Assembly (NCBI GenBank): GCA_002726235.1
Contig: PBSN01000008.1
Location: 309,390 to 373,389 of the forward strand
Length of the DNA: 64,000 nt
From: Nitrospiraceae bacterium
GTDB lineage: Bacteria > Nitrospirota > Nitrospiria > Nitrospirales > UBA2166
Reading direction: 5' to 3'
This document shows, piece after piece, positions 5,104 to 61,336 of the stretch; the stretch's first letter is position 1, and every line of letters begins with the position of its first letter. A program made the translations under genes and the position numbers. The notes beneath the pieces were generated by a model. That model did no database searches. It was not told the origin of the DNA and saw only the letters and a list, made by a program, of their open reading frames with translations.

Positions 5104-5616
5104 TTATGATGATTTTGGTGAAAGGAGCATGACCATGAAACGGCCTTCAATCCGATAAGGTTGCTCCACTTGGCCGTGATCAGCAATGCCCTGAACAATC
5201 AGATCCATCAGTAGCTTTCCACGTTCTGCATGTTCCATTTCGCGTCCTCGGAATACGAGAATGACCTTTGTTTTATGCCCATGATCCAAGAAAGAGTTAA
5301 TATGCTTGATCTTTGTATTCAAGTCATGGATCCCGGTTCGAAGTCGTATTTTTGCCTCCTTGACTTGTGTTGATTTTTGATGAGATCTGTTTGCATGTTC
5401 CTTTTTATTGGTCTCATACATATACTTTCCATAATCCATAATCCGGCAGACCGGCGGATGAGCCATTGGCGCCACCTCCACCAAGTCGTATCCTCCGTCA
5501 AGCGCCTGCCGAATTGCATTGGCGGTCTGTAAGATACCAAGTTGATCGCCCTCTGGTCCAATGACGCGAACTTCAGCCGTTCGGATTCGTTGATTAACAC
5601 GAAGTTTCTGAACGAT
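5104..5616 (-). CDS. infC: Translation initiation factor IF-3, ATC start codon
   Basis: IF-3 binds the 30S subunit, checks the start codon and initiator tRNA, and keeps the subunits apart. The N-terminal domain opens with VNQRIRTAEVRVIGPEGDQL and the linker has CRIMDYGKY. The C-terminal domain carries the RGREMEH block. The first in-frame ATG (5484) would remove the entire N-terminal domain, and an in-frame stop lies 24 bases upstream of the proposed start. The only fitting start is ATC at 5616, placed 6 bases after GGAGG. It gives 170 residues, the normal length. Non-standard AUU/AUC starts on infC are well known and let IF-3 repress itself. Confidence 0.93.
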   Translation of the reverse strand: MVQKLRVNQRIRTAEVRVIGPEGDQLGILQTANAIRQALDGGYDLVEVAPMAHPPVCRIMDYGKYMYETNKKEHANRSHQKSTQVKEAKIRLRTGIHDLNTKIKHINSFLDHGHKTKVILVFRGREMEHAERGKLLMDLIVQGIADHGQVEQPYRIEGRFMVMLLSPKSS

Positions 5617-39136: not shown

Positions 39137-40564
39137 TCAACGCCGGAATCGCGTGATGGATTGGATAGCAGTTTTTACAATGTCAACCATCACTTTAAGT
39201 TCATTGTGAGTGGCTGTCAGCGGAGGCATCAGGATAAGAATATTCCCGTTCGGGCGGATAATCAGTCCATGCTCGCGGGTTTCCATGGCTATGCGATGTC
39301 CGATTCTGTCTTCGAGGCGATACGGTTGCTTAGTTTGTTTATTTTGAATCAACTCTATCCCTGCCATAAGACCAATCTGCCTGACCTGTCCAACATGTGC
39401 AAGAGATTTCAGTGTCCGTAGCGCTAATTCAAAAGTGCAAACTTTCTTTGGCAATATTTTAAGAAGTTTTGTTCGTCTGAAAAGCTTTAGATTGGCTAAT
39501 GCAACCGCACATCCAAGCGGATTTCCTGTATAGCTGTGGCCATGGAAAAAGGTCTTGAAATCATCGTAGGACCCTAGGAATCCATCATATATTCGTTGGG
39601 TGGTTAATGTCGCTGCAAGTGGCATATATCCGCCAGTTAACCCCTTACTGATCGCCATCAAATCAGGAGTCACGTCCTCATGGTCACACGCGAACATCTT
39701 TCCTGTGCGTCCGAATCCGCTTGCAACTTCGTCCGCAATTAACAAAACATCGTAACGGGTACAGAGTTCACGTATCGCTTTTAAATATCCTGGCGGACTC
39801 GTAATCATTCCGCCGACACTTTGAATCATGGGTTCAATAACCAATGCCGCAATGTCCTGATGGTTGTCTCTCAAGGTTGCTTCAATTGGGTGAAGACATG
39901 CGAGACGGCAGGACGGATAGCGAAACTGCATTGGACATCGATAACAGTAGGGTGGATCAGCCCTAAAGGTCTTGAATAGGAGCGGTTTATATGTCTTATG
40001 AAAAAGCGAAATCCCGCTGAGGCTGACGGTTCCGAGCGAATCCCCATGATATGCCATGTCGAAGGCGAGGAATTTCTTTTTTCGACGGAATTGTCGTCCC
40101 TGTTGTTGCCAGTATTGAAATGCCAACTTCATAGCAATTTCCATCGCAGTGGAGCCGTTATCCGAATAAAAGACCTTCTGAAGGCCTAGAGGGGCAATTT
40201 TGGTGAGTTGCTTTGCGAGTTCAATTGAAGGAACGTTGCTCAGTCCTAGGAGCGTGGAATGGGCAATCTTTTCGAGTTGTGTTCGTATGGCTTGGTCGAG
40301 TGCGCGGGTTCGGTGGCCATGGATATTGACCCAGATTGAAGAGACACCGTCGTAATAACGATTTCCTTCTATATCGACGAGGTATCTTCCATCGCCGTGT
40401 TCGATGATGATGGGAGGCTCCTGTACCCACTCCTCCATCTGAGTGAACGGGTGCCAGACGAATTTATGGTCGTCACGTTGAAGCCGATCCTGCCGTTTTT
40501 TGGCAGAATGGTGAACAGAGCGCCTACGATTTCGGATAGCTGAAGCGGCAAAATGGCGAACCAT
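39137..40564 (-). CDS. bioA: Adenosylmethionine-8-amino-7-oxononanoate aminotransferase
   Basis: Biotin synthesis: transfers the amino group of S-adenosylmethionine to KAPA. The 475-residue PLP enzyme has WHPFTQM and SIWVNIHGH near the start, the substrate-gating STALEI-like GSTAMEIA, DEVASGFGRTG and the PLP lysine in ISKGLTGGYMPLA. A cysteine-containing insert (CYRCP...YPSC) is seen in many BioA proteins. Thirty-odd basic residues precede the conserved core, but no other start codon is available. No other bio gene lies nearby. Confidence 0.94.
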   Translation of the reverse strand: MVRHFAASAIRNRRRSVHHSAKKRQDRLQRDDHKFVWHPFTQMEEWVQEPPIIIEHGDGRYLVDIEGNRYYDGVSSIWVNIHGHRTRALDQAIRTQLEKIAHSTLLGLSNVPSIELAKQLTKIAPLGLQKVFYSDNGSTAMEIAMKLAFQYWQQQGRQFRRKKKFLAFDMAYHGDSLGTVSLSGISLFHKTYKPLLFKTFRADPPYCYRCPMQFRYPSCRLACLHPIEATLRDNHQDIAALVIEPMIQSVGGMITSPPGYLKAIRELCTRYDVLLIADEVASGFGRTGKMFACDHEDVTPDLMAISKGLTGGYMPLAATLTTQRIYDGFLGSYDDFKTFFHGHSYTGNPLGCAVALANLKLFRRTKLLKILPKKVCTFELALRTLKSLAHVGQVRQIGLMAGIELIQNKQTKQPYRLEDRIGHRIAMETREHGLIIRPNGNILILMPPLTATHNELKVMVDIVKTAIQSITRFRR

Positions 40565-40571
40565 GGGCAGG

Positions 40572-40601
40572 ATTATAAGGTTGGTCTCATGCTTTTGACA
40601 A
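40572..40601 (-). promoter_or_regulatory. bioA promoter, leaderless geometry
   Basis: On the minus strand TTGTCA and a perfect TATAAT lie 18 bases apart. Only 7 bases separate TATAAT from the bioA ATG, so the A of ATG would be at or near the first transcribed base. The -35 box overlaps that of the divergent lepA promoter. Confidence 0.7.
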
Positions 40602-40624
40602 TGAAATCACTAGCCGCATATAAT
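40595..40624 (+). promoter_or_regulatory. Consensus sigma-70 promoter for lepA
   Basis: Perfect TTGACA at 40595-40600 and perfect TATAAT at 40619-40624, with an 18-base spacer. Transcription would begin near 40631, about 25 bases before the proposed ATT start of lepA, which rules out translation starts further upstream. Confidence 0.8.
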
Positions 40625-40643
40625 CCCTCGTTTACACGCCATT

Positions 40644-40648
40644 AGGAG
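40644..40648 (+). promoter_or_regulatory. Shine-Dalgarno sequence that decides the lepA start
   Basis: AGGAG lies 7 bases before ATT 40656. No ATG, GTG or TTG in the lepA frame follows it until ATG 40788, which would be 44 codons inside the GTPase domain. Confidence 0.7.
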
Positions 40649-40655
40649 AATTCAG

Positions 40656-42452
40656 ATTCAGCGACACATTCGGAATTTCGCGATCATCGCGCATATTGAT
40701 CATGGCAAATCAACCCTTGCTGATAGGTTACTCGAGGTTACCGGTGCCATCACCTCACGCGAGTATCGGGACCAGTTTCTCGACGACATGGATCTCGAAA
40801 GGGAACGTGGAATCACCATAAAGGCACGTGCTGTTCGAACAACCTATCACGCAAAAAACGGAATTTCCTACCAACTTAACCTTATCGATACCCCGGGACA
40901 CGTGGATTTTAACTACGAGGTGTCACGAAGTCTTGCGGCATGCGAAGGAGTGCTACTCCTAGTAGACGTGGCCCAAGGCGTCGAGGCCCAAACGATTGCC
41001 AACGCATCCTTGGCTCTGGAACACGATCTGACTGTACTCTCCATTCTCAATAAGATAGATCTTCCTAACGCCGATATCGATGGGACCAAGAAGCAAATCG
41101 AAGACGTCATTGGAATTGACACCTTTGACGCATTGCAGGTGAGCGCAAAAGAAGGAGATGGCGTCCAAGACGTGCTCGAGGCAATTGTCACACGTATTCC
41201 AGCACCCCATGGCAATGAAAATTCCCCATTAAAGGCCCTTATTATGGACTCGTGGTTTGACGATTATCAGGGCGTGATTGTTCTGACGCGAGTGATCGAT
41301 GGAAGTATTACATCGGGACTCAAACTGCAGGTCGTATCGACGGGGAAAGTTGTTACTGTCGGTGAAGTCGGTATTTTTACCCCAAAACGTGAGAAGTCCG
41401 CTGTACTTAATGCTGGTGAAGTCGGATATGTTGTTTGTGGTATTAAGCGGATAGGGGATATCACCATCGGGGATACCCTGACCGAAGCAGCTCGCCCAAC
41501 GGCCAATCCTTGTCCGGGGTATCGCGAACCCAAACCAATGGTCTTTTGCGGACTCTATTCTTCAGATACTGAATATTTTGAAGACCTCCGGGATTCATTG
41601 GAAAAGCTTCGCCTCAATGACGCTTCGATTCGCTATGAGCCGGAGAATTCCTTAGCGCTTGGTTTTGGTTTTCGCTGCGGTTTTCTTGGCCTTCTCCACA
41701 TGGAAATCATTCAAGAACGCTTGGAGCGAGAATATGGACTCGATCTAATCAGCACCATGCCCACTGTCGTCTACAAGGTGACGCTGACTGACAATTCGAT
41801 CATTGAAGTTGATAATCCTGCAAAGTTGCCGGACCCTCACCACATGTTAGGCGTTGAGGAACCGTATGTGGACGCAACAATCATGACACCGGAAGCCTAC
41901 ATTGGCCCCCTTCTTACACTGTGCCAAGAGCGGCGAGGCTCACAGAATAGTCTCACCTATACAGGCATCGGTCGTGTCCTCCTTTCATATCGGCTTCCGC
42001 TTAACGAGATTGTTCTTGATTTCTATGATCGCCTGAAGTCATGTACCCAGGGATATGCATCGTTTGACTACGAGTTTGCTGGGTATCAACCAGCCAACGT
42101 TGTGAAAGTAAATATTCTTGTTAACGGGGAAATGGTAGATGCTCTGTCGTTTGTTGCCCCACGAGAGGTTGCACCATTTCGTGCTCGCCGACTTGCCGAG
42201 CGGATGAAGGAAGAGATCCCACAACAACTTTATGAAGTCGCAATTCAAGCTACGATTGGTCACAAAATTATTGTGCGAGAAACTGTAAAGGCCCTTCGGA
42301 AAGATGTGACTGCGAAATGCTATGGCGGAGACATTACACGCAAACGGAAACTATGGGCAAAGCAGAAAGAAGGGAAAAAACGAATGAAACAAGTGGGGCG
42401 CGTTACCATACCTCAGCAAGCATTTCTGGCCCTGCTCAAAATCAACAACTAG
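40656..42452 (+). CDS. lepA: Elongation factor 4 (LepA), ATT start codon
   Basis: Ribosomal GTPase that back-translocates tRNAs or assists 30S maturation. From ATT 40656 the protein has 598 residues, the usual length, and begins [23 protein letters not shown] (G1). G2 lies in [11 protein letters not shown]3 in DTPGHVDF, G4 in NKIDLP; the LepA-specific C-terminal domain ends near [18 protein letters not shown]. In the lepA frame, between a stop upstream and ATG 40788 there is no ATG, GTG or TTG, and ATG 40788 would delete the P-loop. ATT behind AGGAG is the only good candidate. lepB follows, a common pairing. Confidence 0.93.
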
Positions 42453-42545: not shown

Positions 42546-43193
42546 ATGGAAAGAAATGTTCAGCTAAGCAATACGCATAAGCTAAAGTCAAAGAAGTCCC
42601 TTGTGCGTGAGTATGCCGAAGCAATTATTATTGCCATCATTCTCGCCTTGATCATCCGGACATTTGTTGTTCAGGCATTCAAGATTCCGTCGGGTTCCAT
42701 GATTCCGACATTGGTCATTGGCGATCACATTCTCGTCAACAAGTTTTTATTCGGGGTAAAAATTCCCTTTACCGATCGTATTCTGTTCTCATTTGATACA
42801 CCTGAGCAACGAGATATCATCGTCTTTAAATACCCAGAGGATGAGGATAAAGACTTTATTAAACGAGTTGTGGGAACGCCTGGTGATCGAATTTCACTGC
42901 GGGATAAAGTTTTGTATGTCAATGATATCCCAATGGTTGAACCCTATATTCAACATACGGACTCTTCAATTTTGCCAGCTGTTTTACATCCACGAGATAA
43001 TTTCGGTCCAATCACTGTTCCTCCCGATCAATACTTTGTCATGGGGGATAATCGAGATCAAAGCCTTGATGGCCGCTTTTGGGGATTCGTAAATCGGGAA
43101 AAGGTCAAAGGGAAAGCTTTTTTTATTTATTGGTCGTGGGATCGCGAAAATACAAATGTCCGCTGGAACCGACTTGGAAAAACTGTCCATTAG
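42546..43193 (+). CDS. lepB: Signal peptidase I
   Basis: Inner-membrane protease that removes signal peptides from exported proteins. The 215-residue protein has one strong N-terminal membrane helix (about 25-45), then the catalytic serine in PSGSMIPTL, the catalytic lysine in DFIKRVVG, and the box E motif VMGDNRDQSLDGRFWG. Ribosome site AGAGGAG lies ahead of the ATG. It is 93 bases after lepA. Confidence 0.96.
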   Translation: MERNVQLSNTHKLKSKKSLVREYAEAIIIAIILALIIRTFVVQAFKIPSGSMIPTLVIGDHILVNKFLFGVKIPFTDRILFSFDTPEQRDIIVFKYPEDEDKDFIKRVVGTPGDRISLRDKVLYVNDIPMVEPYIQHTDSSILPAVLHPRDNFGPITVPPDQYFVMGDNRDQSLDGRFWGFVNREKVKGKAFFIYWSWDRENTNVRWNRLGKTVH

Positions 43194-59773: not shown

Positions 59774-61336
59774 CTAGCTCTGGAAATGCTCTACGATGGC
59801 GTTGACCAGTGCGGGAATCGTACTTTCTTTTGCGGCAATGGTTGGTGTCAGCCCAAACTCTTTCACTGTTTCGGAGGTGATCGGGCCTATACTTGCGATA
59901 GTTGTTTGTGAAAGAAGTTTGTGTGCCTGACCTCGCCCGCCGAAGAGATCAACAAAATTCCGGACCGTCGACGAACTCGTGAAAGTGATAACCGAAATCT
60001 CATTGCTCCGTAGCATCTCCATCGCCCACGCGACATCACGATTCGGATGAACAGTGCGATAGACGACTGGAACCGTCACCTCGGCACCCAAGGCCCGCAA
60101 GGTATCAGGAAGAACTTCTCGTGCAACCTCGGCGCGTGGGATGAGGACGCGTTTTCCCTTCAAACCCAATGGGGCTAGCACATCAATAACGCCTTCAGCC
60201 TGAAATGTTTCTGGGATGATGTCTGGAATGAGGCCATGTTTCCGGAGCTCCTGCGCCGTTCGAGGCCCTATGCAACAAATACGAAGGTTGTGAAGCACAC
60301 GAAGATCCTGGTTTCGATCATATAGATGTCGCATAAAATAGGTAATGCCATTAACACTGGTGAACACGGCCCAATCATATCGGTCGATGTTATCGATAGC
60401 GCGATCAAGTTCTGTGGTATCGGCAGGGGGAATCATTTCAATCGTTGGGCACTCAATCGTTTCAGCTCCGTAGTTATAGAGCAGGTCACTGCACTCTTTT
60501 GCCTGTGACAATGCGCGAGTCACCATAACTTTTTTCCCAAACAAGGGACGTCGCTCGTACCAATTCAACTTATCACGTAGCGTAACCACATCTCCGACAA
60601 CGACGATAGCAGGTGGATCCATCCCAGCGTCGGTACTTGTTTTGACGATATCTTGAAGCGTTCCTGTCAGCGTGCGCTGAGTAGCTCGTGTGCCCCATCG
60701 GATAAGCGCGACTGGCGTTGTCGGTGGCTTCCCCTCATCGAGCAACGAACGAACAATGCTGGGGAGATTGCGTATTCCCATCAGAATAACGAGAGTTCCA
60801 TTCTTCTGTGCAAATAATTTCCATGTGACATGTGGGACATCTTTTACAGGGTCTTCATGTCCTGTGACAATTGCCACTGAAGAAGCGAGAGTGCGATGGG
60901 TAATCGGAATACCTGCGTACGCCGGACATGCAAGCGCTGAGCTGATTCCTGGTACAACCTCAAAAGGGATCCCAGCGTCAGCAACGAATTCAGCCTCCTC
61001 ACCTCCCCGACCGAAAATAAAGGGATCGCCCCCCTTCAACCGAAGTACCGTCTTCCCTTCTTGGGTTCTCGCAACAAGTAGTGCATTGATTTCGGCTTGG
61101 TTCAGGTAATGTCCACGACCTCGCCGTCCCACATAGATCAGTTCGAGGGCTGTTTTTGTGGCATGCCGTAGAAGCGCTGGATTGGCAAGATAATCGTAGA
61201 TAACGACATCAGCTTCCTCTAGGCATTCCTTGCCCCGCAACGTCAGCAGTTTTGGATCACCAGGCCCAGCCCCAACGAGATATACCCTACCTGTCCCCTG
61301 AGCAATAGGGGGCAGTGCTGGTGTCGAGATGCTAAT
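59774..61336 (-). CDS. cobA-hemD: Uroporphyrinogen-III methyltransferase / synthase fusion, ATT start codon
   Basis: Two enzymes in one chain. Residues to about 255 are a CobA-type methyltransferase that makes precorrin-2 for siroheme and cobalamin; the rest is HemD, which closes uroporphyrinogen III. CobA blocks: VYLVGAGPGDPKLLTLRG, GGDPFIFGRGGEEAEF, VPGISSALACPAYAGIP. HemD ends with FTSSSTVRNF and SIGPITSETV. The first usual start codon (TTG 61240) would delete the SAM-binding GAGPGDP motif. Between that and an in-frame stop upstream, only ATT 61336, ATC 61330, a CTG and a second ATT (61303) are available. ATT 61336 lies 9 bases after AAGGAGG and overlaps the hemC stop as ATTAG. It gives 520 residues. 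Confidence 0.92.
   Translation of the reverse strand: MSISTPALPPIAQGTGRVYLVGAGPGDPKLLTLRGKECLEEADVVIYDYLANPALLRHATKTALELIYVGRRGRGHYLNQAEINALLVARTQEGKTVLRLKGGDPFIFGRGGEEAEFVADAGIPFEVVPGISSALACPAYAGIPITHRTLASSVAIVTGHEDPVKDVPHVTWKLFAQKNGTLVILMGIRNLPSIVRSLLDEGKPPTTPVALIRWGTRATQRTLTGTLQDIVKTSTDAGMDPPAIVVVGDVVTLRDKLNWYERRPLFGKKVMVTRALSQAKECSDLLYNYGAETIECPTIEMIPPADTTELDRAIDNIDRYDWAVFTSVNGITYFMRHLYDRNQDLRVLHNLRICCIGPRTAQELRKHGLIPDIIPETFQAEGVIDVLAPLGLKGKRVLIPRAEVAREVLPDTLRALGAEVTVPVVYRTVHPNRDVAWAMEMLRSNEISVITFTSSSTVRNFVDLFGGRGQAHKLLSQTTIASIGPITSETVKEFGLTPTIAAKESTIPALVNAIVEHFQS

Follow-up and report, generated by a model that had tools for sequence, protein, structure and literature searches.

Among genes that start with AUU, the most familiar is the one encoding initiation factor IF3. 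The infC genes of E. coli (AUU) and of other bacteria (AUC, AUA) resemble the lepA gene examined here in joining a near-cognate start codon to a strong Shine-Dalgarno (SD) sequence in a gene of the translation apparatus; however, autocontrol by IF3 is established for infC in E. coli, whereas LepA is not a discriminating factor, so no direct autogenous loop would arise. The pcnB gene of E. coli also starts with AUU, which according to literature cited in PMC1780047 limits the protein yield, although its product, unlike LepA, is not a ribosome-associated GTPase. For sigR of Streptomyces the likeness to lepA includes: (i) a position as first gene of an operon; (ii) a weak start that lowers the product, as would be expected for lepA; (iii) a strong SD; and (iv) conservation across the genus (PMC5472188). 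The sigR start is GTC rather than ATT, and the effect of IF3 was measured for sigR but is taken by analogy for lepA. In Staphylococcus aureus, cvfC1 (AUU) and ccpN (AUA) likewise pair a conserved non-canonical start with a strong SD, and in reporters the output of such starts in poor medium was about 10% of that of AUG (PMC13009471); the S. aureus starts were shown by initiation-arrest ribosome profiling together with reporters, whereas the lepA start is known here from sequence.

For lepA itself, AUU starts have been inferred in Borrelia burgdorferi and Bacillus licheniformis (Margus et al. 2007, PMC1780047), where, as in the present gene, a full-length reading frame requires the assumption that translation begins at AUU, again by inference from sequence. 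The original prediction, which stated that no lepA case was known, was therefore mistaken on this point, and a literature search for further papers on AUU starts of lepA returned nothing beyond PMC1780047. The two earlier cases come from unrelated lineages and single genomes, whereas the present case spans four species. GTG was detected at the expected lepA start in all 30 fetched genomes of the Bacillus group, taken as a group rather than species by species; this conflicts with the AUU start proposed for B. licheniformis (PMC1780047), and the older Bacillus example may hold only for a particular strain, or may be avoidable, rather than being general. Comparison across species lends the present case more support than a single genome could provide. 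The feature itself, a lepA with no ordinary start codon that almost certainly begins at AUU, is real and conserved, and it is not unprecedented.

The lepA 5′ region

The window, i.e., the whole stretch of 64,000 nucleotides that was analysed, is part of a 670-kb contig in a draft genome of about 1.87 Mb (27 contigs, 90.65% complete). The lepA frame opens after an in-frame stop, TAG (40611-40613), reaches the G1 (P-loop) motif AHIDHGKST at 40689-40715 (+ strand) and ends at 42452. The codons that follow the stop are CCG CAT ATA ATC CCT CGT TTA CAC GCC ATT AGG AGA ATT (40650) CAG ATT (40656), and the frame continues from there with CAG CGA CAC ATT CGG AAT TTC GCG ATC ATC GCG CAT ATT GAT CAT GGC AAA TCA ACC. 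As originally predicted, and at the positions then given, ATG, GTG and TTG are absent from this frame between the upstream stop and G1 in the window, and the earliest canonical start is ATG 40788, located 3′ of the motif. Translation from the ATT at 40656-40658 (+) would yield a LepA of 598 residues (40656-42452, + strand, stop included), which matched the LepA equivalog TIGR01393 at 940.6 bits (cut-off 533.9), with residues 4-597 aligned to positions 2-595 of the 595 in the profile. The SD, AGGAG (40644-40648, +), is positioned 7 bases 5′ of ATT 40656. This part of the prediction, including the length of the protein, was upheld. Gene callers limited to ATG, GTG and TTG would cut the GTPase P-loop off a nearly universal protein at this locus.

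The SD of lepA was calculated to have a duplex energy of −7.3 kcal/mol, a value equaled or exceeded in strength by only 14% of 238 genes (median −3.1 kcal/mol), and its strength fits a role in compensating for a weak start. Folding of the lepA 5′ region revealed no notable RNA structure (z 0.21), and a regulatory structure over the start was rejected. Two further ATT codons were considered as starts and set aside: (i) ATT 40650, which lies just one base after AGGAG and is AAT in one congener (G003); and (ii) ATT 40641, which has no SD ahead of it and adjoins the SD itself.

Upstream, a sigma-70-type promoter was identified with a −35 hexamer TTGACA (40595-40600, +) and a −10 hexamer TATAAT (40619-40624, +) separated by an 18-base spacer. 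The match of 12 of 12 consensus bases agrees with the promoter first proposed, and both hexamers are invariant in the four species of the genus. Perfect promoters of this TTGACA-18-TATAAT type number four in the 670-kb contig, compared with about 0.3 expected from base composition. Versions of the lepA promoter are kept across the order, beside TTG or ATG starts too, so the perfect promoter does not set the genus that carries ATT apart.

The lepA start codon across relatives

The 5′ region was compared with those of three other species of the genus, whose LepA proteins are 92, 90, and 86% identical to that of the window. Codon 40656 is ATT in all four species (the window genome, G001, G002, and G003), and the layout of the congeners is the same as that of the window, mostly CATTAGGAGAATTCAGATTCAGC. 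The SD is kept throughout the genus, as GGGAG in G002, and ATT 40656 is the sole candidate with a well placed SD in all four species. The in-frame interval between the stop and G1 has no ATG, GTG, or TTG in the window, G001, or G002; in G003 it includes one TTG, 18 codons 5′ of the G1 motif, which lies upstream of the SD, adjoining the −10 hexamer and near the predicted transcript start. The frame upstream of the start cannot be coding, since G001 and G002 have a one-base indel in this region relative to the other two species and G001 in addition carries a stop in this frame a little 5′ of the start region. Conservation of ATT taken alone is weak evidence, with 134 of the 479 codons that specify the same amino acid in all four species also identical in sequence, and 6 of the 18 ATT isoleucine codons of the window kept as ATT in all four; the shared lack of any other usable start is strong evidence.

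Outside the genus, TTG was found at the identical lepA codon in the fetched genomes of two sister families, f2 and f3 (e.g., TTGCAGGCACTG versus ATTCAGCGACAC), while genomes of a further family, f4, have an ATG two or more codons upstream of the homologous position. Conservation of the codon among the closest relatives thus held for all four species of the genus and stopped at its border, TTG occupying this codon outside the genus only. In a scan of bacterial genomes, a canonical start was present at all 80 lepA loci from elsewhere. The presence of ATT in the three congeners and of TTG at the corresponding position in the sister families strongly supports the predicted start at ATT 40656, and AUU 40656 is almost certainly the translation start of lepA in this small genus of Nitrospirales.

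Given ATT in the genus, TTG in the sister families, and none of the 80 outside loci lacking a canonical start, the data are best read as a switch of the lepA start codon in the ancestor of the genus. ATT and TTG are two bases apart, and a route between them that remained translatable at each step would go via ATG. In published reconstructions, switches to AUU were recorded for 1 of 61,358 ancestral AUG starts and 1 of 5,080 GUG starts, with none listed among 2,468 UUG starts (PMC5622118). Because such switches are very rare, an AUU held genus-wide opposite TTG at the homologous codon of sister families makes an unusually clean evolutionary case.

Near-cognate starts in the genome and interpretations of the lepA AUU

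The open frames of the 670-kb contig were scanned for non-canonical starts against about 1.2 Mb of one relative from family f4. Many of the hits were antisense shadow frames, which were removed. The 21 flags left over were inspected manually, and in most of them a canonical start follows within a few codons, inside an end that aligns poorly. A homologue was available for 242 non-overlapping genes, of which three displayed convincing homology 5′ of every canonical start: lepA, infC, and a cobA-hemD-like gene. The infC gene (5104-5616, − strand) has no canonical start and would begin with AUC after GGGAGGTG; this ATC is kept by two congeners and by the genomes sampled from sister families f2 and f3, while a search of the third congener yielded no infC match. 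In one genome of family f4 (G006), an ATG was observed near the expected place in infC. The cobA-hemD-like gene (59774-61336, −), named from sequence motifs and gene order rather than by profile search, provides a second ATT start: the ATT at 61336 overlaps the stop codon of hemC (TAG, 61334-61332) in the sequence AATTAG and is preceded by AGGAGG 9 nt ahead. Among the congeners, G001 likewise has no canonical start for this gene and shows the same overlap of ATT with the hemC stop; in G003 the ATT is retained, but an ATG follows five codons later. The SDs of infC and the cobA-hemD-like gene are even stronger than that of lepA in terms of duplex energy. GTG and TTG make up about 40% of inferred starts. 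Overall, AUU is rare in this genome, lepA being one but not the only case, and the lineage has an established habit of using near-cognate starts.

We consider it highly probable that lepA is transcribed from the consensus promoter and translated from AUU 40656 at an inefficient start that is opposed by IF3, with LepA kept low as a result. According to this explanation, the promoter would supply abundant lepA message, and the strong SD, with its 7-nt spacing, would place the ribosome at AUU 40656. Initiator fMet-tRNA would then read the AUU through third-position mispairing, such that initiation would be inefficient and, in line with what holds at other AUU codons, opposed by IF3; the expected outcome is a low, translation-limited level of LepA despite the strong promoter. 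We infer all three of its central elements, namely use of the AUU by ribosomes, low LepA, and sensitivity to IF3. ATT belongs to the class of start codons disfavoured by IF3, which is known to repress the non-canonical starts of E. coli infC and of Streptomyces sigR (GTC) (PMC5472188). By analogy with these two genes, sensitivity of the lepA start to IF3 is likely, and the dependence on IF3 first proposed is plausible in this organism because its own infC starts with AUC. The AUU start makes a response of LepA to IF3 a testable idea. A view simpler than regulation is that the strong promoter is shared by lepA and the next gene 3′ of it, which encodes a lepB-type signal peptidase I (42546-43193, + strand; TIGR02227), while the weak start would hold LepA low. 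The lepA-lepB gene order is as in E. coli.

Why the AUU persists is a separate matter, and two accounts, both compatible with translation from AUU 40656, were weighed. The first, to which we give about even chances, is that selection on start codons was relaxed, such that weak starts drifted in at genes of low demand, a strong SD or translational coupling compensated, and AUU is used without a regulatory role; it addresses why the codon is there rather than where translation begins. Consistent with relaxed selection are the genome size (about 1.9 Mb), the occurrence of two ATT genes and an AUC-started infC among the 242, the share of GTG and TTG starts, and the weak TTG already in use for lepA in the sister families. 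However, only 3 of the 242 genes are affected, so that selection on starts is not generally relaxed, and the codon, SD, and leader of lepA have been kept across the genus.

The second account is a stronger version of the preferred explanation rather than an exclusive alternative, and we regard it as possible but clearly less probable than drift. It holds that the AUU is a regulatory device by which LepA follows the 30S/IF3 ratio together with the AUC-started infC; LepA, a protein that assists in 30S maturation and in initiation, would accordingly rise when IF3 is limiting. In E. coli the main contribution of LepA is to initiation (PMC4245954), and a link between IF3 and LepA would therefore be sensible; infC starts with AUC in the same genome; and ATT persists in four species, though a single G would give ATG, at a codon of a kind to which starts very rarely switch (PMC5622118). 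Against a regulatory device, the second ATT gene, cobA-hemD, is not visibly connected with translation, and a low demand for LepA would explain the persistence equally well, E. coli showing no evident impairment of growth when LepA is lost (PMC4245954). A regulatory purpose of the lepA AUU is speculative.

Accounts in which lepA does not start at AUU 40656 fared far worse. Initiation at a canonical codon in another frame followed by a shift into lepA, or initiation at ATG 40788 to give a truncated LepA, is very improbable: G001 and G002 do have an ATG in another frame 50 nt before the motif, but in the window the stretch from the −10 hexamer to the IAHIDHG codons is free of ATG, GTG, and TTG in every frame, which led us to reject a frameshift, and a start at ATG 40788 would remove a G1 motif that is intact and conserved upstream. 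A sequencing or assembly error masking ATG, GTG, or TTG, conceivable in a draft genome of this completeness, was dismissed as next to impossible, since the same ATT is present in three congeners from separate assemblies.

The divergent bioA and lepA promoters

A second promoter, TTGTCA-18-TATAAT (40572-40601, − strand; 11 of 12 consensus bases), overlaps the −35 hexamer of lepA and is placed to drive the divergent bioA (39137-40564, −; TIGR00508), whose ATG lies 7 bases after the −10 hexamer. The resulting bioA-lepA pair, with its overlapping −35 hexamers, occupies 40564-40624 of the window and is present in four families of the order, in each of which the mirrored TATAAT is kept. As this mirrored pair occurs in all four families examined, the lepA promoter was not acquired to rescue the ATT start.

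We considered whether the divergent promoter might feed two messages disfavoured by IF3, a leaderless bioA and an AUU-started lepA, with IF3 itself made from AUC, such that the supply of LepA would be tied to the IF3/30S ratio within a small set of IF3-sensitive genes; this extended scheme is improbable, more so than a regulatory role of the lepA AUU by itself. The bioA message is probably leaderless or nearly so, given how near its ATG or GTG lies to the −10 hexamer: the two are separated by 6-7 nt in each of the four congeneric species and by 8-12 nt in sister family f2.
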